Of a stretch of 64,000 nucleotides of DNA, positions 13,771 through 40,057 are shown piece after piece. A model generated the notes under the pieces. It was not told the origin of the DNA, did no database searches, and saw only the letters and a list, made by a program, of their open reading frames with translations. The DNA comes from Tetrahymena thermophila SB210 (Eukaryota; Ciliophora; Oligohymenophorea; Hymenostomatida; Tetrahymenidae): contig NW_002476559.1 of NCBI RefSeq assembly GCF_000189635.1, forward strand, positions 1,488,001-1,552,000, read 5' to 3'. Every line of letters begins with the position of its first letter. Within the stretch, counting starts at the first letter, position 1. Both the position numbers and the translations under genes were made by a program.

Positions 13771-15083
13771 ATGAAAGAAACATAAAATATATAAACGTAA
13801 ATACAGAATTTAAATAGAGAGAAGGAAAATCTCTTAAAAAAGCTTGCTGAAGAAACCCAAAAGCTAACTTAGTATAACACTGAAAAATAAAATTTAAAGA
13901 ATTAAATTAGCACTATAAACTGTCAACTATCACAAGAAAAAAGCAAACTAAGCAACCTTACATCTTAATTAGAGACAGAAAAGAAAAATCTAAATTAATA
14001 ACTAACAACAGAGAAAGATAAAGTTACAAATTTAACAAAGTAACTTGATGACTAAAAGATAACACTAACAGATTAAACTGACAATTTTAAATCTGAATTG
14101 GCTCAACTAAATGAGAAATTAAGTAATCTAAAAAAGGATTCCGAAGACTAAAAAAAAAATCTCACTGAGCAAATTACTAACACAAATAATAACCTACTCA
14201 AGTTAGAAATAGAGAAAGCCGTTAAGTTGACAAACGAGTTTGAAGGTGAAAAGAAAAATCTAAACTAAACCCTGTAAACAGCTCAAAAAGAATTAGAAGT
14301 TCTAACATCTGAAAAAAATACCAGAGTTGAGAAAAATAAACAAACAGAAGAATAATATGTTCATTTAATAAATCAGTTGAAAAATTCAAATGAAGAATTA
14401 AATAAATAATTATCAGAGATGAAATAAAATCTACAAGAAAAAAATGAGGATTTAAATTTAGCTAATAAAAAACTATCAGAATAAGAATAAGAGATCTTAA
14501 ATCTATAACTGCAAAAAGAAAAAATCATCAACTTTATAAAAAAAAAAAAATAGATTTATTTTAATCTTTAATAATAATTTCATGATGGAGAAAGCTAAAA
14601 TAAAATGCTTTAATCCACATTAGATGATTCTTTAAGATAATAAAATTAATTTAAGCAAGAAATCATCCAATTATAAGAACAAATTCAAGCACTCACTGAA
14701 GAAAACTAAAGATTCTAGAATCAACTTTAAGTAGTATCTAGAGAAATGCAAAGCATCTAAAAATTCCAAACTATGTATTGACTTTTATGCAAAAATTAGC
14801 AGCTTATTAGTATTGACACACAATTCAATTCTTGCTTATTCTACTTTAGCAGTAATAGTAATAAGTTTTAGAAAATAATACATTAACTACAAAATCATAT
14901 CTTCGAATAATACGAAATATTTAAAGAATAACCTTTTGAAAATAAAGAAGGTGTTTATATTGTCTGTCTAAAAAGTATAGAAAAGTATAGTTAATAAAAA
15001 CTTGCCCAATTATGCAAGAACTTTGAATATTAGTATGAGCTAAACTAATTTGATTTTAATAGTCTCTAAAGATAAAAGATTGA
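13771..15083 (+). pseudogene. Family Y copy 1: deleted and locally inverted
   Basis: This is a rearranged paralogue of the coiled-coil/pseudo-GTPase/HSP20-like genes. The coiled-coil part is open from ATG 13771 to TGA 14779-14781 (336 aa), rich in Leu, Lys, Glu and Gln with long heptad-like stretches. Compared with the copy at 24662, about 1.1 kb covering the whole GTPase-like domain is missing after 14772. Next to that gap, 14781-14852 is the reverse complement of the sequence found at about 26720-26787 of the other copy. After 14852 the HSP20-like end resumes in the original orientation and in the same frame, running to a TGA at 15081-15083 that a one-base loss puts out of frame. The TGA at the inversion junction truncates the product. 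A coiled-coil-only protein could still be made, but the GTPase-like and HSP20-like parts are not expressed as a unit. Confidence 0.8.
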
Positions 15084-15946
15084 TAAATATATAAATAAAT
15101 AAACAAATATATTAATTCGCATATATAAATAGCTCTTTGCTATTTTATGTTTTTTTTTTTTTTTTTGTATTTATTACATTTGTTTATCATAAATTTTAAA
15201 ATAATTAAAATTATAAAAACGAGGGTATAGAGGAATATTTAAACATTTAAAAAGGAGGTTAATAAATAAATAATTTTTATCAATAGCAGAATTTGGTATA
15301 GATTTATCAGTGTTTTGGTATTTTTTAGATAACATTATATTTAAAAATTCATCAGTGATAATTATTATTATGATTTATTTTTTTTGTTGTTATTGCAAGA
15401 GTGAAGATTTCTTATATCTGAATTATTTAAATTTTGATCTGAAATACCTATTTTTATAAGTCCACTGTTGCTTATATGAGTATTTATTATTAAACATAAA
15501 ACATTTATTTTCTAAATTCTTAAATTTTTTTTATAAAGGAAAAAATATAAATGGTTGTAAATTGAAGGAAATAAAAGATTCTTAAATTCTAATCAAATAT
15601 ACATTTTTATTTCTTAAAATTAGTTTTAATTTACTCTATCTAATAATTTAAAAGACAGATATTTTTATTTAGTTTAAACTTTTAAGATGTTTAAGTATTT
15701 TAAATTAACTTTAAGAATTTATTTTTTCAAAACAAAAATATTATTTTTTCTAATTAATTATCCATTTAAGGAGCAGTGTGTAAAATAATCAAAAATAAAA
15801 ACAAAGATATAATTTTGTATTTATAAACAAAATAGAATTTATAAATTTAGGACCCACTTCAATCATATTCCTAATCATTAAAGTTAGAATAGTAATAAAG
15901 GTATAAAATTGCTTATAAAAGCACTTTAAATATATTTTATTTATTT
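15084..15946. other. Tail-to-tail spacer between family Y copy 1 and family X copy 1
   Basis: This is AT-rich DNA between two convergent genes. Part of it (about 15770-15946) resembles the 3' flank of the other complete X gene near 45040-45213. No gene was recognised. Confidence 0.5.
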
Positions 15947-18900
15947 TCATAGTTATATTTTTTGGTCTTACTCGATTTCTTCATTATAGAAGTAGTTTGT
16001 ATTATTATTATTATTTTGAATAGTATCTTCACGGAAAATAGTCTTAACAAAATATGAATTCTTAGGACTCTAATTATTTAATTATAAAGAAATGGAATTT
16101 TATCTTATCTACTTTGGGCTTAAAAAGTATTTTTAATTTACACCTTCTTCATTAGGAATTAATTAACTTGAAGATTTGTTCATTATAGGTGATAATATAT
16201 TTAAGTATAAATTGGAATTTAAATTTTATTATTTTTCAGTGCATGGAGAAATCTAAAGTCTAATTTATTTAATTAAAAAATCTTTCTTATTATATAAGTT
16301 TAAAACATATTCGCCAATATCTTTATTTTCCGCTTTTCCTTAAATTAAAATGACTGAGTTAGTAATATCTAAACTCTAGATCCATGATGGAAGTTCTTAG
16401 TTTTAGTGGAATTCTTTTTCAACTAACTCTTCATAGTTGTGTTTAAAACAGCAGTATATTTCTCTTTAAATAGGACGGTATGATCTTATACTTTTAATGT
16501 CATGATACTCTGTTTCTATACATTCACCTCTGACTTTTGGGACCATCCCTTTACCGTCTAATGTAAATCCTAATGCAATGGCCTCTATTACCTACTTTAT
16601 AAATGGAATTAGTTATAAAGATTACTTTTTCTTTTCTTCTCTATCTTCACAATTTTAGAATGTATCTTAGAATATTTAATTAAAACAATTCTCAAAAAAT
16701 TATATTATAGGAAATTAATCTTAGTGAATATTTTTAGGCTAAGCAATGATCTAAACATATTTTTTATACCAATCTATTTCTAGATAACCTTCTTAAAGAG
16801 CAACATTCTTAAGGAAGCTTAAAATTTGTTAGCTAATTTGATGAAGTTCAGAGAATTAAAAAGCAGCTAAACCTACAATAGCTCTAGAGATCATAGACTA
16901 AGAGTTTTTTAGTTGTGCTTCTGTAGTAAAATTTTTTTCCTTAAAATTTTATTAATAATGTTCTCTAACTGATTCTAGGATAAATGAATTATTTAAGCTC
17001 CCATCCTAGTTAAAATATAAACTACTGCTTATGGTACTTTTTCTACTTTTTTAAATTTAATTTCTAGGTGACTCTTTATTCTGTTTTACTTTTGATATGC
17101 TCCTCAAATAGCTTTGAGTGAATTTATTCTAAAGTTTCTAAAACGTTTCTTATCTCTTCCTAAAAACTGGCGTGCACTTAATTGTAGAAGCAGCCATATC
17201 TTATTTGCTTTAGCTCATAGAATGGTTATCCATATCTTTTTGTTCTAAAATCTAATTTAGCTCCTTTAACACTTGATCTTTGTTTAATTTTTTAAAATAG
17301 CTTTTCCATATGTTTTAAGCAATTTCTACTTTGTTTCCCAGCAGTGGTATTTGCAGTAAAATTTCATTACCAGATTAAATTTAAATTTTAGTTGTACTAT
17401 AATTATTTTTTCTGAAGCGGTTATACATTAATGATTTATATTTCCACAATCCTAGAATCCCTAAGATTGGACTCATAATCTAAAACATATATAAAAGAAT
17501 ATACGAAAAAGGTATAAGATCAAAATGCATCTCAAAGTAATCTATCGCGTATGTGTAGCCATCTGTCACATTAATCATAATTCTTGCTACTGTTTGAAAC
17601 TAAGAAGAGCTAACAGAACCAAAGAAATTTCTCTATTCTTGCTAGAAAACAAGCCAATATTATTAAGGTAAGGTTTAATATTCATCTTTTATGAAAATTT
17701 TAGCAGTATAATGTAAGGCACGCCCATCAGGATTCAAAAAAACCTCTGGATTGAAAGTGTAGCTGAAAGACTCCATAATATATAATTGTGAATTCGAAAA
17801 TTTCAAGGCAAAGTCATCTCTTAAGCTCAAAGAAGGATTATTAGAGATCGGTTGGTTTAGCTTAATAATATACTTATGAGAGGCTGTTATAGTTTTAGTT
17901 ATTACATAGTTAACAGAGTCATTAATTGTTATTGTTAATTTTATTAATTAAGGATTAACAAAATTTGCTATCCGTATTCCACTATTAATAACAGAGTTTA
18001 TTGAAGCTACATCTCCTTATAGTTAAATCTTGGTATTCTCAGCATTTAAGTAGATCAACACTCCACTGTACTAGTAAGGAATAAAGCATCCCTATGAACT
18101 ATCTATATCCAAAGAAATTTAAAGTTAACTACTTATTGTCTAGATAGAGGGGGCAACACTTTCGTCATCTATGTTTACTTATAAAGAGCTTTCTACTAAA
18201 AAATTAATTGGATAATAATTATTCCTTTAAGATAGAATATAAAAGATATAATCAATTATATTTTATTAATATTTATTTTACAAGAGGTCATTTATAACTT
18301 CTTAAGAAGTCTAAACAACAAAATAGTCGTGAGTAATTAAATTTGCTAATATACAATCAACAAATATTTATTGCGATTATTACTATGTAATGCTCAAATA
18401 ACTGTTAATAAAATCAGTTTTACTCAACTTTTAAGACACTGAAAATACAAATTGTTGTTATGAAATTTATAGCTAATTGTCATATTGAGTCGAATTTATC
18501 TAGTTTGTCTAATTGCTATTTAGTTGATTTGCTGAACTAGTCTGAAGAGAATTCTTATCCAGTTAAAGAATCAATGATTAGCTAGCTTAAGAATAAGAAG
18601 CCCAATATGGGAGATCTTGCATATTAAAGTCAGAATAATAGAAAACATTATTAATATAAGCTTAGTTTGAAGGATAAACTTAGTTTAGATTAATTTAAAT
18701 TTTTTAGCCTACTTTAAATATTGTGCCTATTTTTAATAAGGTATTCATTTCAATTTCTCCTTCCGAAACCAACTAGATGTCCAAGTCAAAATTTATGCTG
18801 GGGAAAAGATTTAATCTAATAACTGAGGTTGCTAAACCAAGATATGCAACTGTTTTATCAGAATTGGCACATATATTCAATCCTCCATCAATATTTTAGT

Positions 18901-21648
18901 AGTTGAAGACTTGCAAAATATTAGGGTTTTTTACATCCCTCAAATCAATAAGCTATAATTAACCTCTGTATCTAGCTGTGCATAGTAAGAAAGTCTCATT
19001 ATATATAATTGAACATTCTTTTACAGATCCCTAAGTTCTCAAAGATACTAAAATCATGGGAGAAGCTGGCTAACTGACATCAATGATCTTGAGACCAAAT
19101 TACGCATCAGCAAAAACTATTAATGGTTTTGTTTAGAAGACTCGAATCTTTTTATTATAAATATTTATTTTTTTTACTTTTAAATATTAAATATTTTTTA
19201 TTAAAATATTTAAATAAAATAAATTATTAACTTTTGATTTCCTCAAAAAAAAAGTAAAAATTAATAAATTAAAAAAATTTAAAGAGTTTATTATAATTAA
19301 TTAAGGGAGTTGGGGAAGGAGTTATTTTGTATTTTTATGAGTTAATATTAGGAAAAATAATTTTTGTGGAAATTAAAATTAAGGAAGTACATATTTATTT
19401 CATAGTAATTCATCAATAATAGTATAAATCACATTTAAAAATACATGGAATATGTTTTTAAAAATAAAATGGTATTTATCAATATTTGCTTTTTTATTAA
19501 ATATTAATGTAATATATTTTTTTTGGATATTATAATTAAATTTAGATTTAATTTTTAAAAATATAAGTATCTTTAAATGTAAGTTCTTTTTTAAATAAAA
19601 ATGAAGTGTTCATTTTTGAGGGTTTGATATATTTAATATTGACTTATAAATTAAATAAAAAAAATATGTTATTTAATTAAAAATTAATGAAAGCCAAAAA
19701 AAGCTGACTCAATTAAAAAATTAATTAATTCTTTTTGAAAATAAGATAAGCACCGTCAATTAAACTTTTTAAGATTTTATTAAATGGCTTTTTATTTACT
19801 GGACGTAAGTTAACAGTAATTATAAATTTTGTTATTTGAATTGGACAAAGTCGAAAAAAAATTATTGATTTTTGAAAGAATAGGTGATTTTTCTAAATAA
19901 TTTAAAAAAATAATAATTACATTTTGTCCTCCATAAGTAGTAATATAAGATAAAATAATAGGGTTGGTAAAATTATGGACATCATAAATGACTAATCCTT
20001 AACCATTATATGACGCATAAATGTATTACTCAGTTGCATCCATACTCAAATCTTAGCATTTAGAACTAATAGGTAAATCTTAATATTTAGAAGCAATTAT
20101 CTATGGCGCAGATAAATTAGAAATATCCACAATGACAACTCCTTGAGAATCCCCTGCAACAATAATTTTTTTTAGATCCTTTGTGATGTAGGCAGAACGA
20201 ATTTAATTTCCTGTAGATATAGATAAAGTGGAAATTTATTAAGGATTTTTGATGTCCGATATATCATAGAAATAAAGGTGATTATCTCTTCCAATAACTA
20301 AATTATTGTCTTTATTAAATATCTTAGCTAATTTGAGATTAGTGGTAAAGTTGGGGGGATTTATATTCTAAACTTAAAGCAAAGTATGGCTATTAGGATC
20401 TTCTTTAAAGATATACACTCCTTCTGTTCCTTTGGCAGACAGTAGATAATTCTTATATGGAGTGTATTAACAGCTATAGGCGTATTACAAAGCACTTATA
20501 AATTTATCATAAACTATTATTTGGGGAATGTTCACAACTGAAGGTAGAATTTAATTGTAATTTGTTTCTTTGATTTAATAAATTTAAATATCATCTTGTG
20601 TTGAAACATAAAGCAAATCACTTGTCTTGGATATCATAAATTAATATAAATAATTAAATATATTAATTTATTAAAAAAGTTAAGCACTTAACGGACTGTA
20701 ATTAATCTACACTATCTGGATGTACAAATAGTTGATATTAATCAATATATACTAGTAGTCTTAAGAAACTATTGATTATAAGTATGTGTCTATTGATGAA
20801 AATAATTGCGTTATTTTTAGGTCATTACAATTTCCAGATTATATGAATGCAGATAAGTCTACTCCAGATATGACTTACTCACTAGTTTAAACTAATAAAA
20901 ATTAACTATTTACTATTTTGTTAAGAGTAGGAGCCTTTGAAAGGGTTATTGAACATTTATCAGCAAAAAGAAGTTATTTATTTGAAGCTTAATAATCTTA
21001 TATATTATTAAATTAAAGTAAGCGCAAACTACTATCAGCAAGGAATATAATATTAATACTGAAATCTATTGTTATCATAGAAGTGCTAGATTTAGCAGGA
21101 ATAGTGAAAATAAAATTAATTTGATCAGCATTCTAAATGTCATAAACATCTACTGCTAATTTATTGACTAAAAATAGCCTATTTATACCTTAGTAATAAA
21201 AAAAGCTATTTGTTGCTCCTGAATTCTGCTTTGGAATCTGAGATTTAGTAACAATCTAACTTAAATGCGGATTTTAAATCTAAAAAAGATAAAGGTTGTT
21301 TGCGTCAACGACCCATAAGTTCTGTGTCTTACTCTGAATATACATTTATTAAACCTAAATTTTGGCAGGAAAACTGTACAGATTGACTTCATGGTTTTCA
21401 GAATTTAGGCAAGAAAATTGTAACCCACATTAGACGCTATAAATCACGCAGCAATTCTAGAATGGTGGCTCTAAGCACTACTATAAAGTAACACCTTTAT
21501 TACCTTAGCAAATATCAAGTTAAGACTTGCTTGCAATGGGTGATGATGCAAACCATAGTGTACCTTAATAGCTCAACTAGCAATTTACTATCAAAATATT
21601 TAAACTTATTTAAAAAACTCTTCTAAAAATTGATTTATTTAGAAACAT
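15947..21648 (-). CDS. Family X copy 1: LVIVD-repeat, cadherin-like membrane protein
   Basis: This is a large type I membrane protein of 1642 residues in two exons (19921-21648 and 15947-19147; intron 773 bp). The N-terminus (MFLNKSIFRRVFQISLNILI) looks like a signal peptide or anchor. A Cys-containing extracellular part follows, with beta-propeller-like LVIVD repeats: GVVIVDISNLSAPQI (near 511), GLVIYDVHNFTNPIIL (near 557), GLKIIDVSQPASPMI (near 595) and LIDLRDVKNP (near 640). At about 1015-1115 lies a dystroglycan-type cadherin-like domain (NPDGRALHYTAKI, then RIMINVTDGYTYAIDY). A single membrane helix (about 1121-1146) comes next, then a cytosolic tail of about 500 residues with no recognised domain. 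LVIVD repeats and CADG domains are known in surface proteins; adhesion or sensing at the cell surface is inference. The exon junction lies inside the propeller and is phase 0. The whole frame lacks TGA until the end. Confidence 0.85.
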
Positions 21649-24661: not shown

Positions 24662-27028
24662 ATGGAAGACAGTGAAATTCTAGAAACTCAAATAGTGGAT
24701 TTAACTCAACAGAAGAAAAATCTTGAAAAAAAGCTTGCCGAAGAAACCCAAAAGCTAACTTAGAGTAATGCTGATAAATAAAATTTAAACAATTAAGTTA
24801 GCACTTTAAATTGTCAACTATCACAAGAAAAAAACAAAGTAAGTAACCTTACTACCTAATTAGAGACAGATAAGAAAAATCTTAATTAATAACTAACAAC
24901 AGAGAAAGATAAAAATACAAATTTAACTAAATAGCTTGATGACTTAAGGAAAGAATTAACTGATTAAACTAACAATCTTAAATCTGAATTAGCTCAGCAA
25001 AAAGAGAAAACAAAGGTATCTGAAGACTAAAACAAAACTCTCACCGAGTAAATTACTAACGCAAATAACCTACTCGCATTAGAAAAAGATAATTAAGTTA
25101 AGTTGAAAAACGGGTTTGAGGATGAAAAGAAAAGTCTAAACTAAACTGTGTAAAAAACTCAAAAAGAATTAGAAGTTCTAAAATCTGAAAATAAAACCAT
25201 GAAAAATTCAATTGAAGAATTAAATAAATAATTATCTGAGATGAAATAAAATCTACAAGAAAAAATTGAGGGTTTAGATTTAGCTAATAAAAAACTATCA
25301 GAATAAGAATAAGAGATCTTAAATCTAAAACTGCAAAAAGAAAAAATCATCAAATCTATAAAAAAAAAAAAGTAGATTTATTTTAATCTTGAATAAAAAT
25401 TTAATGATGGATAAAGCTAAAATAAAAAACTTTAATCCACATTAGATGATTCTTTAAGATAATAAAATTAATTTAAACAAGAAATCATCCAATTTTAAGA
25501 ACGAATTCAAGCACTCACTGAAGAAAACAAAAGATTCTAGAATCAACTTTAAGTAGTATCTAAAGAACCGCAAAGTATCTAACAATTTTAAACTACTTCT
25601 TACGACTAGCAATTAAACTTAACCGATCTCTTTAAGAAAAAACCATAAATCAAAGATTTTTTCAACTTTTAATATGAAGAAAGTGAGTAAAATGTAACAG
25701 TAAGCTTATTATCATACTCAAAAGGATCATCCTACATCCTAAGCTAAATCTTAGAAAAGAATATCACTAAATAAAAAAATAATGACAATAGCATATTCAT
25801 CCATAATCACAAAGTTAACGAATTGCAAAGTTCGCTGTTTCTCAACACTAAAAAAATGGGATAACCAATTACTTGCTATAAAAAAAATGAACACAATAAC
25901 TAATCATTAAAAATGAAACATTAGTATTTTGATTAATAAGAAATATAAAATCAACAAATGATCCAAAGTTTCTTAATTGATCTGGTGTCAAATATAAGTG
26001 ACGTCTAAATCCTTGTTGTAAATGAAGTTACTGAGCAAGAATAAAATTTGATAATGAAACTTAAATCAGATTTTTTGCAAAACAAGTATGCAAAAAATGA
26101 TAAATAACTTATTATCATCCATTTACTTACATAGTATGATGAAGAACAAATTGAGGAATATTCTCAAAATATTCAAGGTTTCTTTAAATTAACTGAAAAA
26201 TATCACTAAAACAATAAGTACTTCAAAGATCAAGATTATAAAAATATATCTCATTTTGTCATAGGTAATGAATATCTACAAGAAAAAGAAAAGTATTTTA
26301 CTTTTCCAATCTATAAAATAAAGTAGATGATTTTCGAAGAAATGTTCATTGATGGATACTCTATTTATGATAGAATTTAAGAATTCTTAAACAAATATTA
26401 CTCCTTTTATGTTCAAATCGATAACTAAGATGATATCAAGCGTCAATATCTGGAATAATAACCTTTATTAAAAAATGACAGAAATTAAATAATGATGAGT
26501 TCAAATTAGAATGATTAAGATAACATTTGTGAAAACAATTAAATTAAGGAACTGTTTATAAGAAAAGATAACAATCTAATTCTGAATGAAGAATTATATG
26601 ATTTTTTGGAAGTCAAAAATTACAATTATAAACTTCAATAGAAAACCATAACTGAAGTAAATTACAGACTAGAAGTCTCCAACGATTAATAATAGCTCTT
26701 AGTAATTATCGAAATTCCTGCTAAAGTCGAATAAGCGAAAATTGAATTGTGTGTCAATACTAATAAGCTGCTAATTTTTGCCTAAAAGTTAATACCTAAT
26801 AGTAATAAGTTTTAGAAAATAATATATTAACTACAAAATCATATCTTCTAATACTACGAAATATTTAAAGAACAACCTTTTTAAAATAAAGATGGTGCTT
26901 ATATTGTCTGTCTAAAAAGAATAGAAAAGTATAGTTAATAAAAACTTGCCCAATTATGCAAGAACTTTGAATATTAGTTTTAGCTAAACTAATTTGATTT
27001 TAACAGTTCTCAATAGATAAAAGATTGA
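24662..27028 (+). CDS. Family Y copy 2: coiled coil, degenerate GTPase, HSP20-like
   Basis: This is an intronless reading of 789 codons including the stop (788 aa). Residues 1 to about 310 form a long coiled coil rich in Glu, Lys, Gln, Asn and Leu. Residues about 320-570 match, by pattern, the P-loop GTPase family that is abundant in ciliates. The phosphate-binding loop is SYSKGSSYILSQIL where GKS/T is expected, the G3-like site reads LNTKKMGQPI where DTAG would be expected, and the G4-like site is IIIHLLTQYD where HNxxN-type motifs occur. The segment SDVQILVVNEVTEQEQNLIM fits the conserved switch-distal helix. Residues about 654-780 resemble an HSP20/alpha-crystallin sandwich (LLVIIEIPAKVEQ, KLLIFAQK). 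The three degenerate motifs argue against GTP hydrolysis. The role is unknown; a chaperone or scaffold role is only a guess. Confidence 0.8.
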
Positions 27029-27383
27029 TAAATAAATTTATAAATAAATAAACAAATATATTCTCATATATAGATAGATAGATAGCTCTTTACTATTAAT
27101 GTATTTTTTTGTTTTTTATTATTTGTCCTTTGATTTAGTTAATGAAATCTGTATTAAAAATTATTATTTTTGAGCACATGAAATTTTTTTTTCTGCTTAT
27201 ATAATATTTGCACCTTAAGATGAAGTACCTAAAATAAATAAAGATTCTTTTATATTTTTAGATTTAGAATATTTTGCAACTTAGATAAGGGCAAATCATT
27301 AAATTCTAAATTTTTATTTCATTATAAAATCTTTTCCTCATTAGGGAGAAAAATATACTCTTGTTTATTATGTTAAATAGAAT

Positions 27384-27520: not shown

Positions 27521-27738
27521 ATATTAGAATATCTTTATAATTTAGTAATAGAAATATTAAAACAATTGCTGCTTAGGCTAAGAGATGCTTATTTTTATTC
27601 TTTTATTTAAATTATTGATCATCTCTTTAGCTACATTTTAAAAAAATAAGTAATACAGACAGACTTACATAAAAAATGAATTTATTAAGTTTTAAAATTT
27701 CAATGATTGATAAACTGACAATTAATTTTTATCTGATG

Positions 27739-27818
27739 TTAGAATATTTGAAAATGTTAGAATAATAATAATAGTAAAAATAGTATCAGCAATTATTTAA
27801 TATTAGTTGAATATTCTA
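27739..27818. promoter_or_regulatory. Degenerate palindromic element before the Y relic
   Basis: The outer arms TTAGAATATT and GAATATTCTA are kept, but the loop is longer than in the other copies. It precedes a decayed gene, consistent with duplication of the upstream DNA followed by decay. Confidence 0.35.
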
Positions 27819-27886
27819 AAATGATTCTATATATTTAGAAGTATTTAATTATATAATCAAAATAAAATAACCAACTAATAAATCAA

Positions 27887-28527
27887 ATAGAAGAAACAAA
27901 AAAATTATATCTCGAATCCACACTTTAAATCTAGAGAGGCAAATATCTAAAAAAAGTTAACCAAATAAACCCAAATGAAGCAGCAAGAAGATCAGATTAA
28001 CTACGAAGTATAATTTTATTTGTTAAAAGCTCAACTAAGACTCTAAAATAAGAAAATAAAGGATTTTACTATTGAATTAGAGACAGAAAAGAGTAATCTA
28101 AATTAATAGCTAACAACAGAGAAAATAAAATTTACAAATCTAACCTAATATTTAGAATACTAAAAAAACTAACTGATTAAATTGAAAACCTTAAATCTTA
28201 ATATAAGCTCAACAATAAGAGAAAATAAACAATATTAGAAAGCAATCCGATAACTAAATAAAGATTCTCAATGAGTAAATTACTAATGTAAATAAACTAC
28301 CCGTGCTAGAAATAGAAAAAGTAAGCAATATGACAAAAGAATCAGAAGGATAAAAAAAAATTCACACTGAGTTAATTTTTAAAGCAATTAAGCTAATCAA
28401 ATTAAAAAAAGAGAAAGTAAGAAATCCGACAAAACAATCCGAAGACTAAATAAAGTAAATAAACTACTTGTGTCAGGATAAGAGAAAGTTGTTAACATAA
28501 TTAAAGAATTTAAGGATAAATATCAGA
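27887..28527 (+). pseudogene. Decayed 5' relic of a family Y gene
   Basis: This is similar to the first several hundred bases of the other Y genes: the same start context followed by coiled-coil codons. The start codon has become ATA (27887-27889), an in-frame TGA appears near 28070, and the coiled-coil frame shifts repeatedly. The GTPase-like and HSP20-like parts are absent; the sequence runs into non-coding repeats at about 28530. It is a clear pseudogene fragment. Confidence 0.75.
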
Positions 28528-28542
28528 ATTTTTCAAAGCTAA

Positions 28543-29120
28543 TAAATTTAAGTTTTTAAGTTAAATTCTTTTATATATGAATTTGATTATTTTAATAGAA
28601 TAAAATAATATATTTAAATAAATATTGTTAATAAATAAAAAATTGAAATTTTCCTTTTCTCATTGAGTTTATTTATATTCTAATTAAATTTAATAGAATT
28701 TAAGGATTAGAATGAGTTTTAATTTAGTAAAATAATATACTTAAATAAATATTTTTTAAAAATTTATTATTTGAAGTTCCATCAGAATATTTCAAACCAA
28801 ATAAATTTAATTTTATAAGTTAAATTCTTTTATAGATGAATTAGATTATTTTAGAATAAATAGAATAATATATTTAAATAAATATTGTTTTTTAATGAAA
28901 AATTTAAATTTTCCTATATTCTTTGAGCTTATATTCTATATTAATTATTTTATTTAATATGTTTTAAGGATTTGAATGTGTTTTATGTCAGTAAAATAAT
29001 AAATAAATACATACATAAAAATAAATAAATATTTTTAAACAATTCATTATTTGATTTCATCATAATTTTCCAAAGCAAATAAATTTAAACTTTAAGTTAC
29101 TTTTTTCTACGAATTAGATT
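28543..29120. repeat. Tandem non-coding repeat, unit about 260 bp
   Basis: Landmark sequences such as AAGTTAAATTCTTTTATA followed by GAATT recur at about 28559, 28818 and, weaker, 29093, giving a unit of roughly 260-275 bp in three diverged copies. Each unit also carries TTTGAAGTTCCATCAG-like and TATTTAAATAAATATT-like blocks. Related units occur at 36410-37330 upstream of the 37.6-kb gene. Confidence 0.6.
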
Positions 29121-29214
29121 ATTTTAGAATAGAATAAAATAAATTATTTTAAATAGTATTTTTTAATAAAAATTAATAAATATGTTCTTTTTTTCTATTC
29201 TATTTTTAAATATA

Positions 29215-29345
29215 TTCTAAATATTCTAATTTTTTATTAAATATCATCTTAATATTCTAATTTTTTATTAAATATCTTCTTAATATTCTAAATTTTTATT
29301 AAATATTTACTTAATATTCTAATTTTTTATTAAATATTTGCCAAA
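29215..29345. repeat. Tandem repeat, unit about 32 bp
   Basis: About four copies of a unit containing AATATTCTAATTTTTTATTA followed by AATATC lie head to tail, just upstream of the 29.4-kb gene. A similar shorter array lies at about 37420-37505 before the 37.6-kb gene. Confidence 0.65.
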
Positions 29346-29430
29346 TAATCTAAAATATCTCTTTATATTTCGAAGCATTTTAATTAAATTTAATTATTAA
29401 TTAATCAAAATTAAATAAAATAACAACCTA

Positions 29431-31914
29431 ATGAATAAAATAGAAGATTTAAGAGAATCACTAAATAAAAAAATAGATTCACTAAATGCAGAGAATGCTA
29501 ACCTCTAAAAAAAGCTTGAAGACACCTAAAAGTTTACAATTGAAAAAACCAATTTAAACAATTAAATTAACTCTCTAAATAGTCAATTAACACAAGAAAA
29601 AAACAAGGTAAAAGATCTTACCACTTAATTGGAATCAGAAAAAAAAAATTTAACTACTGAGAAAGGTAAAGTAAACTCTCTGACAAAGAAATCTGAAGAA
29701 GAAAAGAAAATTCTAACTAACTAAATTACTAACCTTAATGCTGAACTTGCACAATAAAAAGAGAAAGTAAATAATTTGACTAAGCAATTAGAAGACTAAA
29801 AGAAAGCTCTTAATAACTAAATTAATAGTCTAAACAACTAACTGGTGTAAGAAAAAGAAAAAATTGATAATTTGAATTAAGAGGCCTTGGATGAAAAGAA
29901 AACTCTGTTTTCAGTTCAAAAAGAATTGGAAGTTGTAAAATCTGAAAAAAATACTCTGATTGAGAAAAATAAACAATTTTAGAAAAACTAATAAGACTAA
30001 TATGATAATTTAAATGCAGAATTAAAAAAAGAAAAATAAGAATTTAACAATCTGCAAAAGGAGATGTAGAATTAACTTAAACAAAAAGATGAGTTATTAG
30101 ATGCTGCCAATAAAACTTTATCAGAAATAAAAAAAGAAAACTAAAATTTAAACAGTTAGAAAGATAAAATTCTCGAATCAATAAAATTAAAATCATCAAA
30201 ATATAAACAACTTAAATAAAAATGTCATGATACATAAAGTTAAAATGATAAACTTTAATAGTCATTAGATGATTTGTCTAGATAATCCCAAGAATTTAAA
30301 TAATAAGTCATTTAATAGTAAGAAAGAATTAAATTAATCATAGAAGAAAACGAAAGATTCTAGAATCAACTTTAAGTGGTATCTCGAGGACCATAAAGTA
30401 TCAAAGAATTTTAGACTGTTTCTTATAACCAGTAAATAAACTTATCTGATCTCTTTATGGATAAACCAAAAATCAAAGATTTTTTCAAATTTTAATATGA
30501 AGAAGGCATGTAAAAAAAAACAGTAAGCTTATTGTCATACTCAAAAGGTTCATCCTAAATCCTAAGCTAGATTTTAAAAAAGAATATCACTAAACAAAAA
30601 AACAATGAAAATGACCTCTTCATCTATAATCACGAAGTTAACAAAAAACAAAGTTCCCTATTTCTTAACACTAAAAAAATGGGATAACCAATTACTTGCT
30701 ATAAAAGAAGTGAAAACAATCAATCATTACATTTCGATGAAAAAGAAATACAAAATCGCTTAATGATTCAAAATTTCTTAATTGACTTGATTTCAAATAT
30801 TAGCGACATCTAAATCTTAATTGTAAATGAAGTTACTGAGCAAGAGTAAAATTTGATAATGAAACTAAAATAGGACTTTTTGTTAAGCAAACAAATAAAT
30901 GATTAAAAATAACTAATTATCATCCATTTACTTACAAAGTATGATGAAAAGTAAATTGAGTAATATTCAGAAAAAATCCAAGGCTTCTTTAAATTAACTG
31001 AAATATATTAGGAAAACAATTAATACTTCAAAGATTAAGAGTGCAAAAATGTATCTCATTTTATTGTAGGTAATGAACATCTATAAGAAAAAGAAAAATA
31101 TTTCGATTTTCCTATCAATAAAATAAGGAGGATAATTTTTGAAGAAGTGTTTATTGATGGATACTCTCTCTATGATAGAATTTAGGAATTCTTAAATTAA
31201 TATTATACATTTTATGTTCGAATCTCCTAGAAGGAAACTGATACTTAGCGCTAAATGATTGGGTAAGGCTAAGAAGAGTAGTTCTTAAAGTAGAAAGATC
31301 AAGACAAATCGTATGAATTTTCCAGCAATTAAGATATTTAAAGCAATTAATAAATTTAAGGCAATTAAGAAATTTAAAAACATTAAGAAATTTAAAGCAA
31401 TTAAGAAATTTAAAACAATTTAGAAATTATTCCTGATAGCGATTAAATTATAAAATTATTTATTCAAAATGAAAACGATTTAATTCTGGATGAAGAGTTA
31501 TATAAGTTTTAGGAAGTCAAAAACTACAATTATAAACTTCAAAAGAAAGCTATATCTGAAGTGAATTACGATTTAATCCCCTCCAAAGATGAATTGTTGA
31601 TTACAGTAATTATTGAAATTCCTGCTAAAGTTGAATAAGTAAAAATTGAATTGACTCTTAATACTAATAAGCTGCTAATTTTTGCATAAAAGCAAATACC
31701 TAACAGCAATAAGTTTTAACAAATAACATATTAACTACAAAATCATATCTTCTAATTCTACCAGATATGCAAAAAAAAACCTTTTGAAAATAAAGATGGT
31801 GTTTATTTTATTAATCTAAAAAGAATGACCAAGTATAATAAAAAAAAACTTGTAAATCTATGTAAAGATTTTGAAACTTAGTATTAACTAAAATAGCTTT
31901 ATCACAATAGTTGA
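29431..31914 (+). CDS. Family Y copy 3: coiled coil, degenerate GTPase, HSP20-like
   Basis: This is an intronless frame of 828 codons including the stop (827 aa), starting MNKIEDLRESLNKKIDSLNA. The coiled coil occupies about 1-340. The GTPase-like domain (about 345-600) has SYSKGSSQILSQIL in place of the P-loop lysine motif, LNTKKMGQPITCY, and IIIHLLTKYDEKQIEQY. A Gln/Asn/Ile-rich linker built from an 18-nt repeat covers about 631-666. The HSP20-like end (from about 696) contains LITVIIEIPAKVEQ and KLLIFAQK and ends in TGA 31912-31914. From about 30496 to 31600 it is nearly identical to the 37.6-kb copy, with one difference seen. The rest is more diverged, which points to gene conversion or a very recent exchange. 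Confidence 0.8.
31324..31428 (+). repeat. 18-nt coding repeat (Gln-rich linker) in copy 3
   Basis: Nearly six units of 18 nt, of the form AGCAATTAAGAAATTTAA, encode SNQEIQ-type hexapeptides in which every Gln is TAA. It lies between the GTPase-like and HSP20-like domains. The same array, apparently identical, is at 39467-39571. Confidence 0.8.
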
Positions 31915-33005
31915 AAACTTATTCAATTTATATATAGATTAACAAATGAATAAATAAATAAATAAATTCCCTTATATTACTAAGTATTTGTTTTTAATAT
32001 CCTATATATTGTAGTTCATTGAAAATTATTTGATTTGAATCTTATTAACTTACTTATTAATTTTTTTAATTTAATTTATCAATAATTCTAAAAATTTTTT
32101 TTTATAATCGAGAATCTAAAAAAAGAAATTTATCGATAAATTTTATAAAATAATTTTTCTTACCAATAATTTGAAAAAAATAGCTTGCTCATAGATATTA
32201 AATCTTACTAATATTTTATTTATATTAAGCTTAAAATACTTTATGAAAATCGTTATCAGCAAAGATAAAATATTATTGCTAAGAAGTCATCATTAAGATC
32301 ACTGATTAGTATTGATTTAAATTTTGAATAAAAATTGTTTTTTTTGAGATCATGAAATTTTTTTTTCTGCTAATTTAATATCTGCACCTTAAGATCAAGT
32401 ACCTAAGATAAATAAAAATTCTTTTATATTTTTAGATTTAGAATATTTTACAACTTAGATTAGGGGTAAATCATTAAATTCTAAATTTTTATTAAATTAT
32501 AAACTCTTTTCCTGATTAGAGAGAACAATATACTCTTGTATAAATAGTTATATAGAATGTTTTCAGATATTACTACATAATTAAGTACCAATCTGTGAAT
32601 CTTGAAGAAGAGGCTAATTGGTATTCTTCAATTTCTCATTCTATTCTTAAGATTTATCGCAATCAGTGGGGAGAATCTGGCTCTGTATGTATATTAGGCT
32701 GTGTAAAATTTAATGATTCTAATATGATAGGATATTTATAATTATTTTTATAGACAGAATATAAATTAGGAAGAAATAGAGGATTTCCTCTTTTAAATAT
32801 TAGAATTAATATCTTTTCAATTTAGTAATAGAAATATTAAAACAATTGCTACTTAGACTAAGAGATGTTTATTTTTATACTTTTATATCATCTCTTTAGC
32901 TACATTTAAAAAAATATAAAATAAGTAATACATAGAGAGAGAGAGAAAAAAAAATAAATTTATTAAGTTTTAAAATTTCAAATGAATGATAATTTTTATC
33001 TGATA
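31915..33005. other. Intergenic DNA with duplicated motifs
   Basis: This contains flank sequence shared with 27200-27300 (a GATAAATAAAAATTCTTTTA run near 32407), the second copy of the coding-like fragment at 32559-32690, and a short GA run near 32935-32946. No gene was recognised. Confidence 0.5.
32559..32690 (+). repeat. Coding-like duplicated fragment, copy 2
   Basis: This is the second copy of the fragment at 27384. It reads open on the plus strand, with VNLEEEANWYSS followed by a segment ending RNQWGESGSV. The pattern H-S-x-x-x-I-x-x-x-W-G faintly recalls the end of ISXO2-like DDE transposases, but this is too short and diverged to claim. Confidence 0.4.
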
Positions 33006-33097
33006 TTAGAATATTTAAAAATATTAGAATAATAATAAGAATAATAACATTAATAAAAATAATACCAGCTATTATGAAATATATGTTGAATATTCTA
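33006..33097. promoter_or_regulatory. Palindromic upstream element, family Y copy 4
   Basis: The outer arms TTAGAATATT and GAATATTCTA are conserved around an enlarged loop. The position matches the elements upstream of the other copies. Confidence 0.35.
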
Positions 33098-33263
33098 AAA
33101 TGGTTCTATATATTTAGAGGTATTTAATTAAATTTTATCATTAAATAATCAAAATAAAATAACCAACTAATAAATCAACTAGAGAAACAAAAAAAATTAG
33201 ATCTCAAATACAGACTAGACTTTAAATCTAGAGATCTAAAAAAAGTTTACCAAAGAACCCCAA

Positions 33264-35903
33264 ATGAATCAACAAGCAAATAAGATTAACTACGAATAAT
33301 ATTTAGAATAATAATATGAATTTCTTATTACTGAATTATAGACAGATTACAGTAAGCTAAATTAATAGCTAACAGCAGAAAAAAGAATATGCACAAATCT
33401 AACTGATTAAATTGAAAACCTTAAATCTTAATTATCTCAACAATAAGAGAAAACAAACAATCTTAAAAAGCAATCTGAAGACTAAATAAAGACTCTCAAT
33501 GAGTAAATTATTAATATAAATAATCTACTCGTGCTAGAAAAAGAAAAAGCAAGCAATATGAAAAAACAATCCGAAGACTAAAAAAAAACTCTCACTGAGT
33601 AAATTTCTAAAACAAATGAGCTACTCAAGTTAGAAAAAGAGAAAGTGAGCAATCTAATAAAGCAATCTGAAGACTAAAAAAAAACTTTGACTGAGTAAAT
33701 TACTAAGGCTGATAACCTACTCATATTAGAAAAAGAGAAAGTAAGTAATTTGACAAAGCAATCTGAAGACTAAAAAAAAACTTTCACTGATTAGATTTCT
33801 AAAGCAAATGAGCTACTCATGTTAGAAAAAGTGAAAGTAAGTAATCTGACAAAGTAATCAGAAGACTAAATAATAGCTCTTAATGAATAAATTACTCAAG
33901 TAAATAAACTACTTGTGTTAGAATAAGAGAAAGTCGTTAATATGACGAAAGAATTTAAGGATAAAAAGACAAATCTAAAGTAAACTCTGTAAACAACTCA
34001 ATAGGAATTAGAAGTTGTAAAATCTGAAAAAAATACCATTCTTGAGAAAAATAAAAAAACAGAAGAATAATAAGTTCACTTAATAAATCAGTTGAAACAT
34101 TTAAATGAAGAATTAAAGAAATAATTATAGGAGATGACATAGAATCTAAAAGAAAAAAATGAAAAATTAAATTTAGCTGATAAATAATTATTAAATTATA
34201 ATGAAGAAATCTTATTCCTAAAATAAAAATAAACAAAAATCATAAATGCATTAAAGAAAAAATAGTAGAGTTATTAGCACCTTTAACAAAATTATAATGA
34301 TGAATAAAGTTAAAATAAATAACTTTAATCCACATTAGATGATTTTTTAAGAAAACAAAATGAGTTTAAATAAGAAATCATAGAATTGTAAGAATAAATT
34401 CAAGGAATAACAGAATAAAAGCAATTATTATAGAATCAACTTTAGGTAGTATCTGGAGAACGACAAAGCATCTAACAATTCTAAATTACTTCTTACGACT
34501 AGTAAATAAACTTAACCCATCTCTTTATGGATAAACCAAAAATCTAAGATTTTTTCAGCTTTTAATATGAAGAAAGCATGTAAGACATAACAGTAAGCTT
34601 ATTATCATACTAAAAAGGATCATCCTACATCCTAAGCTAAATATTAGAAAAGAATATTACAAAAAAAAAAAATAATGACAATAACTTATTCATCCATAAT
34701 CACAAAGTTAATGAATATCTAAGTTCGCGATTTCTTAACACTAAAAAAATGGGATTACCAATTACTTGCTATAAAAAAAATGAAAACAATAACTCATAAT
34801 AATTAACTAAAAATAAATATTTTGATGAATAAGAAAAAAAAAATCAATAAATGATTCAAAATTTCTTAATTGATTTGGTGTCAAATATAAGTGATGTCTA
34901 AATCCTTGTAGTAAATGAAGTTACTGAGCAAGAATAAAATTTGATAGCAAGACTTAAATCAGATTTTTTGCAAAATAAGTATGTTAAGGATGATAAATAA
35001 CTTATTGTCATTCATTTACTTACAGAGTATAATGAAGAATAGCTTGAAGAATATTCTCAAAAAATCCAAGGTTTCTTTAAACTAACTGAAAAACAACAGT
35101 AAAACTATAAGTACTTCAAAGATCAAGATTATAAAAGTATATCTCATTTTATCATAGGTAATGAATATCTATAGGAAAAAGAAAAGTACTTTACTTTTCC
35201 AATCAATAAAATAAAGTCGATCATTTTCGAAGAAATGATCATTGATGGATACTCTATTTATGATAGAATTTAGGAATTCTTAAACAAATATTACACCTTC
35301 TATGTTCAAATCTCTCATAAATAAAATTTTACCAAGAGCAAATAGTAGGGGTAATAATGCTCACAATAAAATGATATAAATCAAAAAATATTTAATTCAA
35401 AATATAATGATTAACATAACATTTGTGAAAGGGATTAAATGAAATTATTTATTCAAAGTGAAAACGATTTGATTCTGAATGATGAATTATATGATTTTTT
35501 GGAAGTCAAAAATTACAATTATAAACTTCAAAAGAAAACTATAACAGAAGTAAATTACAATCTAAATCTCTCGAATGATGAATAATAGCTTTAAGTAAAA
35601 ATCGAAATTCCTGCTAAAGTCTAATAAGTAGAAATTGAATTGAGTGTCAATACTAATAAGCTGCTAATTTTTGCCTAAAAATCAATACCCAATAGTAGTA
35701 AGTGTTAGTAAATAATGTATTAACTTCAAAATCATATTTTCGAGTACTACGAACTATTTAAAGAAAAACATTTTGAAAATAAAGATGGTGTTTATATTAT
35801 CACTCTAAAAAGATTAGAAAAGTATAAGTAATCTAAACTTGCCTAATTATGTAGGAACATTGAATCTTTTTATTAGCTAAACTAGTTTGATTTTAATTGT
35901 TGA
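33264..35903 (+). CDS. Family Y copy 4: longest coiled coil, degenerate GTPase, HSP20-like
   Basis: This is an open frame of 880 codons including the stop (879 aa). The ancestral start seems lost: the bases aligned to the usual ATG read CTAGAGAAAC near 33178, and a base insertion near 33258-33262 shifts the upstream frame. The first usable in-frame ATG is at 33264, inside the old coiled coil. The coiled coil is enlarged by five 96-bp repeats. The GTPase-like domain (about 425-680) has SYQKGSSYILSQILEKN, LNTKKMGLPITCY and IVIHLLTEYNEEQ. The HSP20-like part runs from about 750 to the end (LQVKIEIPAKV, KLLIFAQK). The stop is TGA 35901-35903. It may be functional with a new start, or a young pseudogene whose body has not yet decayed. 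Confidence 0.7.
33468..33947 (+). repeat. Five 96-bp coding repeats in copy 4
   Basis: Units begin at 33468, 33564, 33660, 33756 and 33852, exactly 96 bp apart. Each encodes 32 residues of the type KQSEDQKKTLTEQI followed by a LLxLEKEKVSN segment. The length of 32 is not a multiple of seven, so the heptad phase slips at each unit, giving a regular break in the coiled coil. Other Y copies have one or two such units. Confidence 0.85.
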
Positions 35904-37585
35904 AGACTCAATAAAAGATAGATTGATAAAATATAATAAACAAATATATTCTCATATATAGATAGTCCTTTAATATTTAAAAAAAATGTCTATTGCTGGT
36001 AAACAGTACATATCCATTTATTTTATTATTTTGTAATTTAGTTTTTTATTATTTATTTTAAAATTAATTAATTAAAATTATCAAAAGATGAGGGTAAAGA
36101 GGGACATTTAAAGATTAAAAAAGCATGGAAATAACAATAATTTTATAATATTGATTAAATTTATTTTTAAATATTTTTTTTCTCATATATTTACACCCCT
36201 CCCTACCTAGCATTTTCATTTATTTTTAAATATTAATTAATATCTATCTCATTTTATTGCTTTTGGGTTTAAAAATAAATTAATGGTAAACAAGGATAAC
36301 TAACTAATTACAAAGATAACTAAAAATTCTATGAAATTTTTAGAATATTTTAAATTTTATAATATTTAAATAAATATTTTAAAAAATTCATTATTTAAAG
36401 TTTTATCATAATTTTTCAAAGCTAATAAATTTAAGTTTTTAAGTTAAATTCTTTTATCAAAGAATTAGGTTATTTTAGAATTGAATAAAGTAATATATTT
36501 AAATTAATATTGTTTTTTAATAAAAAATTCAAATTTTCCTATACTCTTTGAGTTTATATTCTATATTAATAATTTTATTTAATACGTTTTAATTCAGGAA
36601 AATAATACATACATACAAATAAATATTTTTTAAAAATTAATTATATGAAGTTTCATCATAATTTTCCATAGCAAATAAATTAAAATTTTTAAGTTACTAT
36701 TTAAGTTAAAAATTCTTATTTATATATGAATTAGATTATCTTAAATATTGCTAATATAATTTTTGCACAATTATAACAATAAATTAACTAAAAATTCTAT
36801 GAAATTTTTAGAATATTTTACAATTTATTATGTGAATATATTTAAATTAATATTTTTTTGAAATTCATTATTTGAAGTTCCATCATAATTTTTCAAAGCA
36901 AATAAATTTAAGTTAAATTGTCTTATAAATGAATTAGATCATTTTAAAATAGAATAAAATAATATATTAAAATAAATATTTTTTTTTAATTAAAAATTGA
37001 AATTTTCCTATACTCTTTGAGTTTATTTTCAATATTAATAATTCTATTTAATACATTGTTTTAAGGATTAAATGAGTTTTAATTCAGTAAAATAATACAT
37101 ACATACATACATACATACATACATACATACATACATACATACATACATACATACATACATACATACAAACAAACAAATAAATAAATATTTTTAAAAATTC
37201 ATCATTTGAAGTTCCACCAGAATTTTTGAAAGCAAATAAATTTAAGTTTTTAAGTTAAATTCTTTTATATATAAATTAGAATATTTTAGAATAGAATAAA
37301 ATAATATATTTAAATAAATATTTATTTAATCAAAATTAATAATTTTGAAGAATATTCTAAATTATTATTAAATATATATGCTCTTTTTTTTCTATTCTAC
37401 TTTTAAAAAATGCTCTAAATATTCTAATTTTTTATTAAATATCTTATTAATATTCTAAATTATTATTAAATATCTACTTAATATTCTAATTTTTATTAAA
37501 TATGTTCCTAATAATCTAAAATATCTCTTTATATTTTTGAGTATTTTAATTAAATTTAATTATTAATTAATCAAAACAAAATAAA
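35904..37585. other. Non-coding, repeat-rich spacer before copy 5
   Basis: This holds four diverged copies of a repeat marked by TAAGTTAAATTCTTTTAT (near 36435, 36700, 36908 and 37245), related to the array at 28543-29120. It also holds a TACA microsatellite and an array of about 32-bp units at 37420-37505. No gene was recognised. Confidence 0.55.
37086..37168. repeat. TACA microsatellite, about 20 units
   Basis: An uninterrupted run of the tetranucleotide TACA of about 83 bp passes into CAAA and TAAA units. It is the longest perfect microsatellite in the window and is likely to vary in length between strains. Confidence 0.9.
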
Positions 37586-40057
37586 ATGAATAAATATAAA
37601 AAAAAGAAAAGAATGGAAGAGTAAAAAGCATTGCTAAATAAATAAATAGATTCACTAAATGCAGAGAAGGTTGACCTCTAAAAAAAGCTTACTGAAGACA
37701 ATTAAAAATTTACAACAGAAAAAACAAATTTAAACAATTAAATTAACTCTCTAAATAATCAATTAACACAAGAAAAAAACAAGGTAAAAGATCTTACTAC
37801 TTAATTGGAATCAGAAAAAAAAAATTTAACTACTGAGAAAGGTAAAGTAGAGAGTCTGACAAAGAAATCTTAAGAAGAAAAGAAAACTCTAACTAACTAA
37901 ATTACTAACCTTAATACTGAACTTGAACAATAAAAAGAGAAAGTAAATCATCTTGAAAAGCAAACAGAAGACTAAAAGAAAACTCTTAATAACTAAATTG
38001 ACAATCTTAATAACTAACTCTTATCAGAAAAAGAGAGAATTGCTAATTTTACAAAAGAGTTCTTGGATGAAAAGAAAATTCTGATTATCGTTTAAAAAGA
38101 ATTAGAAGTTGCAAAATCTGAAAAAAATACTCTGATTGAGAAAAATAAGCAAATTTAGAAAAACTAATAAGACTAATATGATAATTTAAATGCAGAATTA
38201 GAAAAAGTAAATTAAGAATTTAACGATCTGCAGACATAATTAGAAGATACCAAAAAAACTTTATCAGAAATTGAGAAAGAAAACTCAAAACTAAAAAGTC
38301 AAAATGATAATAGTATTGAGTAAGTAGAATTAAAATCATCAGAATATAAATAACTTGAATAAAAATGTCATGATACATAAAGTTAAAATGATAAACTTTA
38401 ATAGGCATTAGATAGAATTTCTAGAGAATGCCAAGAATTAAACTAACAAGTAATCTAATAGTAAGAAAGAATTAAATTAATCACAGAAGAAAAGGAAAGA
38501 TTCTAGAATCAACTTTAAGTGGTATCTCGAGGACCATAAAGCATCAAAGAATTTTAGACTGTTTCTTACAACCAATAAATAAACTTATCTGATCTCTTTA
38601 TGGATAAACCAAAAATCAAAGACTTTTTCAACTATTAATATGAAGAAGGCATGTAAAAAAAAACAGTAAGCTTATTGTCATACTCAAAAGGTTCATCCTA
38701 AATCCTAAGCTAGATTTTAAAAAAGAATATCACTAAACAAAAAAACAATGAAAATGACCTCTTCATCTATAATCACGAAGTTAACAAAAAACAAAGTTCC
38801 CTATTTCTTAACACTAAAAAAATGGGATAACCAATTACTTGCTATAAAAGAAGTGAAAACAATCAATCATTACATTTCGATGAAAAAGAAATACAAAATC
38901 GCTTAATGATTCAAAATTTCTTAATTGACTTGATTTCAAATATTAGCGACATCTAAATCTTAATTGTAAATGAAGTTACTGAGCAAGAGTAAAATTTGAT
39001 AATGAAACTAAAATAGGACTTTTTGTTAAGCAAACAAATAAATGATTAAAAATAACTAATTATCATCCATTTACTTACAAAGTATGATGAAAAGTAAATT
39101 GAGTAATATTCAGAAAAAATCCAAGGCTTCTTTAAATTAACTGAAATATATTAGGAAAACAATTAATACTTCAAAGATTAAGAGTGCAAAAATGTATCTC
39201 ATTTTATTGTAGGTAATGAACATCTATAAGAAAAAGAAAAATATTTCGATTTTCCTATCAATAAAATAAGGAGGATAATTTTTGAAGAAGTGTTTATTGA
39301 TGGATACTCTCTCTATGATAGAATTTAGGAATTCTTAAATTAATATTATACATTTTATGTTCGAATCTCCTAGAAGGAAACTGATACTTAGCGCTAAATG
39401 ATTGGGTAAGGCTAAGAAGAGTAGTTCTTAAAGTAGAAAGATCAAGACAAATCGTATGAATTTTCCAGCAATTAAGATATTTAAAGCAATTAATAAATTT
39501 AAGGCAATTAAGAAATTTAAAAACATTAAGAAATTTAAAGCAATTAAGAAATTTAAAACAATTTAGAAATTATTCCTGATAGCGATTAAATTATAAAATT
39601 ATTTATTCAAAATGAAAACGATTTAATTCTGGATGAAGAGTTATATAAGTTTTAGGAAGTCAAAAACTACAATTATAAACTTCAAAAGAAAGCTATATCT
39701 GAAGTGAATTACGATTTAATCCCCTCCAAAGATGAATTGTTGCTTACAGTAATTATTGAAATTCCTGCTAAAGTTGAATAAGTAAAAATTGAATTGACTC
39801 TTAATACTAATAAGCTGCTAATTTTTGCATAAAAGCAAATACCTAATAGCAATAAGTTTTAACAAATAACATATTAACTACAAAATCATATCTTCTAATT
39901 CTACAAGATATGTAAAAAATAACGTTTTGAAAATAAAGACGGTGTTTATTTTATTAATCTAAAAAGAATGACCAAGTATAATAAAAAAAAACTTGTAAAT
40001 CTATGCAAAGATTTTGAAACTCAGTATTAACTAAAATAGCTTTATCGCGATAGTTGA
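37586..40057 (+). CDS. Family Y copy 5: coiled coil, degenerate GTPase, HSP20-like
   Basis: This is an intronless frame of 824 codons including the stop (823 aa). It starts MNKYKKKKRMEEQKALLNKQ, more basic than its paralogues, then a coiled coil to about 340. The GTPase-like domain is about 345-600, with SYSKGSSQILSQIL, LNTKKMGQPITCY and IIIHLLTKYDEKQIEQY, so the P-loop lysine is again missing. The 18-nt Gln-rich linker repeat lies at 39467-39571, and the HSP20-like end starts near residue 691. The central 1.1 kb is nearly identical to copy 3 at a constant offset of 8143 bp with no indel, while the coiled-coil ends differ. It lies tail to tail with the truncated X copy at 41.2 kb. Confidence 0.8.
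39467..39571 (+). repeat. 18-nt coding repeat (Gln-rich linker) in copy 5
   Basis: This is the same array as at 31324-31428, apparently without a single difference. An intact, unchanged repeat array in two genes is further sign of a recent exchange between them. Confidence 0.8.

Follow-up and report, generated by a model that had tools for sequence, protein, structure and literature searches.

A tandem family of predicted pseudoGTPases with a coiled coil and an HSP20-like end in Tetrahymena thermophila

A stretch of 64,000 nucleotides of the Tetrahymena thermophila SB210 genome (contig NW_002476559.1, positions 1,488,001 to 1,552,000; the window in what follows) carries a tandem set of four long genes, g24, g29, g33 and g37, whose proteins combine a long coiled coil, a GTPase-like middle domain (the G domain) and an end resembling the small heat-shock domain HSP20. 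Judged by sequence and structure model, the G domain shares its ancestry with intact members of a wider family, has lost its motifs G1 to G4, retains its predicted fold and is under purifying selection, and the genes have expanded in tandem with exchange of sequence between copies. That these genes form a selected pseudoGTPase branch is, taken alone, very probable on this evidence. The fuller reading, in which they are the pseudoGTPase branch of a ciliate family of coiled-coil/GBP-like GTPase/HSP20-like proteins (GBP, guanylate-binding protein) and act as nucleotide-independent scaffolds or modulators, is the one favored here, with modest confidence.

The source genome comprises 101 Mb in 445 contigs, and translation was with code 6. 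As an earlier note on this DNA had proposed, the four plus-strand open reading frames (ORFs) were all open with this code, at ~790-880 aa each, and showed the same order of parts: a coiled coil of ~300-400 residues, then the middle domain, then the end domain. The other copies were 62-76% identical to g24, far beyond chance. Two starts were corrected. The ORF beginning at 29182 opens with a low-complexity, AT-rich lead, and the ATG at 29431 matches the starts of the other copies, while the true start of g37 is probably 37613, as in the database protein P0008. The full genes, and the parts of g24, are as follows.

24662..27028, plus strand: g24, full gene with coiled coil, pseudoGTPase and HSP20-like end, 788 aa
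24662..25549, plus strand: coiled coil of g24
25592..26419, plus strand: predicted GBP/atlastin-like G domain of g24, without nucleotide motifs, limits set by model and alignment
25706..25732, plus strand: former P-loop (G1) of g24, LLSYSKGSS, with the lysine replaced and the loop one residue shorter in the alignment
25844..25861, plus strand: former G3 site of g24, NTKKMG, from the alignment
26117..26131, plus strand: former G4 site of g24, IHLLT (HNL in relatives), from the alignment
26588..26983, plus strand: HSP20-like end of g24, a beta-sandwich predicted by the model and weak by sequence
29431..31914, plus strand: g29, full gene, ORF listed from 29182 with the homologous start at 29431
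33264..35903, plus strand: g33, full gene, 879 aa
37586..40057, plus strand: g37, full gene, 823 aa, or 814 aa counted from 37613

The GTPase fold claimed for all four copies in the earlier note was supported by structure prediction of the middle part, a check that the note had proposed, and by structure matches: the order of strands and helices in the model was that of the guanylate-binding proteins, atlastin and RNF112. Alignment and profile comparison indicated that the domain is homologous to that of intact Tetrahymena relatives. An AF2 model from the window family alone reached a pLDDT of just 34.8 and was not used, and the T. thermophila relatives from outside the window did not form part of the AF2 alignment. 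Searched by themselves against Pfam and PDB sequences, the window proteins returned coiled-coil noise or nothing of weight, the GBP profile PF02263 matched other loci of the genome and none in the window, and Rfam gave no match in the window.

The nucleotide motifs have been replaced in the same manner throughout. LLSY-KGSS, NTKKMG and HLL were present in all four window genes and in both of their Tetrahymena malaccensis relatives, in agreement with the replaced P-loop lysine, DTAG-like site and G4-like site described earlier. In all six rows the P-loop pattern GxxxxGK[S/T] was absent, with KGSS in its place, there was no switch threonine at G2, and DxxG at G3 had given way to NTKKMG. That the proteins still bind guanine nucleotide in a non-standard way, as do some pseudoGTPases, is very unlikely. 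Precedents exist in proteins with altered motifs that bind nucleotide, namely septins of classes II and III (PMC10731463) and SMG9, which can bind GDP although it lacks the customary G4 determinant (PMC5473137), but here the G1 lysine, the G2 threonine, the aspartate and glycine of G3 and the G4 asparagine were all gone in 6/6 rows.

Selection was estimated by domain from the ratio of nonsynonymous to synonymous divergence (dN/dS; Nei-Gojobori count, code 6) for four of the six possible pairs. For the G domain the values were 0.29 (0.19-0.43) for g24/g29, 0.36 (0.23-0.57) for g24/g33 and 0.26 (0.17-0.39) for g33/g37; g29/g37 were too similar for a value by domain (dS 0.02), and the remaining two pairs gave whole-half ratios of 0.32 and 0.33. 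The domain shows features of a pseudoGTPase: a predicted GTPase fold, lost nucleotide motifs and retention by selection. Of the earlier description of a conserved but dead GTPase, the conservation and the lost site both stood, and the loss of GTP binding is what the sequence would lead one to expect. The copies might instead be decaying pseudogenes that have not yet been interrupted, since decayed relatives adjoin them at 13771-15172 and ~27640-28454. This is extremely improbable and was rejected by dN/dS: the G-domain ratios lie well below 1. No stop interrupts any of the four long frames, and T. malaccensis retains the same replacements at the motifs.

Within the G domain, conservation is raised at the former G1, G3 and G4 sites taken together. 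The strict positions of former G1, G3 and G4 were invariant in 13/14 cases, against 126/276 for the domain as a whole (hypergeometric p 2.2e-4; the 14 positions were our own choice), wider blocks around the former sites gave 19/24 (p 5.2e-4), and NTKKMG was one of just two invariant runs of at least six residues in the domain. This raised conservation could reflect either reuse of the pocket or a need of folding alone. An explanation built upon it, that the old pocket now binds a different ligand (a peptide, a protein partner or another small molecule) and the domain is a different sensor, appears unlikely. Against it, the comparison involved only six sequences, two of them nearly identical, folding alone may account for the retention of the loop residues, and the G2 block (4/9 invariant, p 0.66) and the G4 block (3/6, p 0.57), taken apart, were not specially conserved.

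The window family has intact relatives in the same genome. Homologue searches with the window family returned the same five proteins, three of the window's own and two from T. malaccensis with consecutive locus tags, and none from Tetrahymena utriculariae or metagenomes. Likewise, a protein search of its own genome, which gives a lower bound, found only this locus and one weak match on C9 (36% over 73 residues, E 0.0012). The idea of an orphan family was dropped once that match proved to be an intact relative. Its GTPase matches Pfam MMR_HSR1 (E 3.6e-7) and GBP (E 2.6e-5), and the next ORF carries a true HSP20 domain (Pfam E 6.9e-11); on C9 and C344 the two parts lie in separate ORFs, taken here as exons of one gene. 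At least eight T. thermophila relatives occur outside the window, four on C99 (including TTHERM_00449670), two on C344, one on C9 and one on C60 (all own-genome counts being lower bounds), with tandem clusters on C99 and C344 and, judged by eye, a long coiled coil in front of three of the C99 genes. Relatives from T. malaccensis and T. utriculariae likewise have a GTPase with an HSP20-like end behind it. The earlier view that the order of parts is an uncommon one was not supported, because the eight own-genome relatives and these others share the GTPase and HSP20-like end, which makes it the order of a family within Tetrahymena.

The earlier note had also suggested looking for Tetrahymena relatives with intact motifs, and most of those found have an intact site: the P-loop was kept in 7/8 T. 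thermophila relatives and DxxG in 7/8, the exceptions being two different genes. A search seeded with an alignment of six relatives, which scored just the 7998 candidates sharing most words, gave 29 proteins, 13 from Tetrahymena and 16 from other sequence collections. The alignment took in 26 of these and left out P0031 (a fusion to an ABC ATPase), P0035 (identical to P0034 in length and score) and P0041 (163 aa). The motifs were present in 26/26 aligned rows, a count biased towards intact rows because the search was seeded with intact members; the own-genome figure is 7/8. P0027 and P0029 differ in their N-terminal parts, one resembling a trypsin-like protease and the other a protein kinase's end; Trypsin_2 and Pkinase of Pfam match 1/32 rows apiece, and the assignment to these two proteins was by reading their sequences. 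P0031 (355 aa) joins the start of this GTPase to an ABC ATPase (PF00005), on a contig of 1194 bases that may be chimeric.

Two of the relatives have lost part of the switch. The C60 gene (C60:1002000-1005500) has GYNLKDT instead of GxxxxGK[S/T] and an altered G2, and keeps DSEG and HNL. Its nearest relatives, P0020-P0022 from T. malaccensis and T. utriculariae, are 59-62% identical and keep the P-loop, so that by sequence the C60 case is an independent loss. The C99:364016 gene (C99:363000-367000, minus strand) has a very long coiled coil and keeps the P-loop, and has lost DxxG, with DQIG or DHIG at G3 in its T. malaccensis relatives (71% identical). Because both genes are partly broken, and because a quick tree requires two separate P-loop losses, loss of the switch is, on these alignments, a recurring trend in the family, of which the window branch is the extreme.

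The identity of the end domain is the least secure part of the family, and an HSP20 assignment has moderate support from the model. Position and predicted fold speak for the HSP20-like end proposed in the earlier note, and it is weak by sequence, with no match to Pfam HSP20 (PF00011) above cut-off in the window proteins. Seven strands were predicted (block pLDDT 61-86), at the place where the C9 relative carries its true HSP20 domain. Foldseek gave one modest match, to the archaeal HSP20 hsp14.1 (rank 36, E 1.9e-3, TM by target 0.45, rmsd 15.7), and the structure comparison VIA listed no HSP20 chain among its 50 matches, a list filled by one domain and hence uninformative. In profile comparison the window ends scored 22.1 and 21.0 against the ends of the remaining Tetrahymena and metagenome rows, slightly above the best shuffles (17.0 and 17.8), and just 12.6 against the true HSP20 part of C9. 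This test has little power, because scores for the other groups were hardly higher, at 22.5 among themselves and 18.9 and 15.4 against C9. At least 90% of 32 rows retain a glycine near the end (Gly446), and a GVL-like turn at such a glycine is a mark of small heat-shock proteins. Over the whole genome the sole PF00011 match was C9:533030-533290, adjoining the C9 GTPase, and this search, in which one candidate was scored and introns were ignored, returned no stand-alone small heat-shock gene.

These observations also bear on the idea that the HSP20-like end is the working part, as a chaperone or aggregation sensor, with the G domain and coiled coil serving to space and multimerize it. The end is conserved, with dN/dS of 0.39 (0.23-0.66) for g24/g29, 0.50 (0.27-1.02) for g24/g33 and 0.32 (0.20-0.53) for g33/g37, and the retained glycine and the true HSP20 part next to the C9 GTPase, presumably an exon of the same gene, point in the same direction. 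However, one of the three limits reaches 1.02, invariant positions make up a smaller share of the end (46/132) than of the G domain (126/276), and neither the Pfam search nor the score against C9 ties it firmly to HSP20. This account is accordingly improbable.

The long coiled coil that had been claimed at the front was confirmed in 6/6 proteins tested (five from the window, and P0010). Their hydrophobic 3.5-residue periodicity was 3.8-5.0, compared with at most 1.7 in 500 shuffles of each, which marks a heptad pattern in all six, and proline plus glycine numbered 0-3. The dN/dS ratios of 0.44-0.67 across six pairs, from a less certain alignment, were looser than those of the G domain, and the coiled coil of g33 contains internal repeats (listed below).

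Two broken copies reported in the earlier note, one rearranged and one a relic, proved real by alignment. They are listed here with two further features of the cluster.

13771..14781, plus strand: truncated copy, coiled-coil half only, 336 aa, ending at a TGA within the inverted piece
14772..14856, minus strand: 85 bp from the HSP20-like part in inverted orientation, matching 26714-26798 of g24 at 91.8% identity
14853..15172, plus strand: what is left of the C-terminal HSP20-like region with its 3' flank, matching 26797-27124 at 89% identity
27640..28454 (about), plus strand: relic of the 5' flank and coiled-coil half with broken frames
30437..31736, plus strand: tract of g29 nearly identical to g37 (97-100% identity over ~1.3 kb)
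33445..33934, plus strand: ~five internal repeats of the g33 coiled coil, each of 96 bp (32 residues)

In the rearranged copy the homologous coiled coil runs to 14773 and is followed by the inverted piece and then the end-domain remnant; ~1.1 kb, comprising the G domain, the linker and the start of the HSP20-like part, is missing. The ~1.1-kb deletion and the inversion have a common breakpoint, and the coiled-coil frame and the HSP20-like remnant lie in the same frame, with one TGA, in the inverted piece, between them. The rearrangement may be germline or may have arisen as the macronucleus developed.

Among the full genes, synonymous divergence of g29/g37 was 0.03 in the C half versus 0.22 in the N half, with the same trend for g24/g33 (0.28 versus 0.79). 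The coiled-coil blocks of g29/g37 were 79-95% identical, except for one block at 55% with 33 gap columns. Because the C halves are much less diverged than the coiled coils, the sequences suggest that the C halves were recently homogenized by gene conversion or re-duplicated in part, with the coiled coils meanwhile diverging and gaining repeats. The trees grouped the window genes of T. thermophila and the two T. malaccensis proteins by species, the T. thermophila fork being weakly supported (84/46 in one tree; SH-aLRT 87 in the second, which lacked g37). The stem of the window branch, at 4.15 and 2.98 changes per column in the two trees, was very long and the branches inside it were short, which may reflect rapid early change followed by constraint, or missing intermediates. 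The first tree carried a warning of long-branch attraction, and the placement of the branch is unsure, so only its status as a single clade was relied upon. The local expansion suggested earlier was supported.

Elsewhere in the neighborhood, a near-perfect ATAC repeat of 20 units (37095-37175) lies upstream of g37. The adjoining 719-aa ORF (40718-42877, minus strand) matches the Pfam LVIVD repeat (22.7 bits, cut-off 20.2), the only Pfam match among 10 neighboring ORFs, and PDB searches gave none for the two ORFs tried, this one included.

The window set is a variation on known kinds, the GBP-like GTPases and the pseudoGTPases, and not a separate kind. Its predicted fold is that of the guanylate-binding proteins, atlastin and RNF112 of the dynamin superfamily, from which it differs in identity (9-16% in the rows cited), in lacking nucleotide motifs and in having an HSP20-like end; from most of its own GTPase/HSP20-like relatives, which keep the site, it differs in the loss of all four motifs. 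By analogy, the nearest precedent would be SMG8, whose GBP/atlastin-like G domain also lacks the G motifs. According to PMC5473137, SMG8-SMG9 is a heterodimer of GBP1/atlastin-like G domains that forms without nucleotide, and SMG9 alone binds it. SMG8 belongs to the SMG1 kinase complex, whereas the window proteins are without a known partner of this type and carry instead a coiled coil and an HSP20-like end. Spn7 and other class I septin pseudoGTPases have similarly lost several pocket motifs and remain as parts of an assembly (PMC10731463), but they belong to another GTPase family and assemble as hetero-oligomers. T. thermophila itself has GVT1 (EAR98751), described in PMC3143110 as a fusion of a guanylate-binding protein with an ER-Golgi vesicle tethering protein. 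Compared by that description only, it shares a GBP-like part and a tether-like, probably coiled-coil part, and differs in that the paper nowhere names an HSP20 part. To the small heat-shock proteins (PF00011) the likeness is a predicted beta-sandwich at the corresponding place, without a Pfam match. Among the papers listed by searches of one open library there was none on a pseudoGTPase in a GBP-like/HSP20 layout, nor on this family.

If the pseudoGTPase-scaffold reading is correct, the proteins would lack conventional GTP binding. They would be held in dimers or bundles by the coiled coil, the G domain would offer a docking surface that needs no nucleotide and pairs either with its own kind or with the intact paralogs encoded elsewhere, and the HSP20-like end would give a second surface for oligomerization or client binding. 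Such proteins would work either as a scaffold that is always 'on' or by modulating the active paralogs; a scaffold or chaperone role, as the earlier note put it, is plausible. A bolder combination, at present tentative and rather doubtful, is that the switch has been dismantled repeatedly and the former pocket of the window branch (KGSS/NTKKMG) now serves as a novel, conserved surface for binding, carried by a scaffold with a coiled coil and an HSP20 tail that partners active paralogs, giving a graded series from switch to structure in one genome.

PseudoGTPases are known singly in several families, but here dead, half-dead and intact siblings occur in one organism, and the value of the finding lies in this gradation, within one genome, from intact sites through half-lost ones to sites lost altogether. 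Tetrahymena thermophila is easy to manipulate genetically. Because the sibling series and this tractability coincide, the role of a GTPase domain beyond switching is directly testable, in what would be a natural example of how a molecular switch becomes a structural component.

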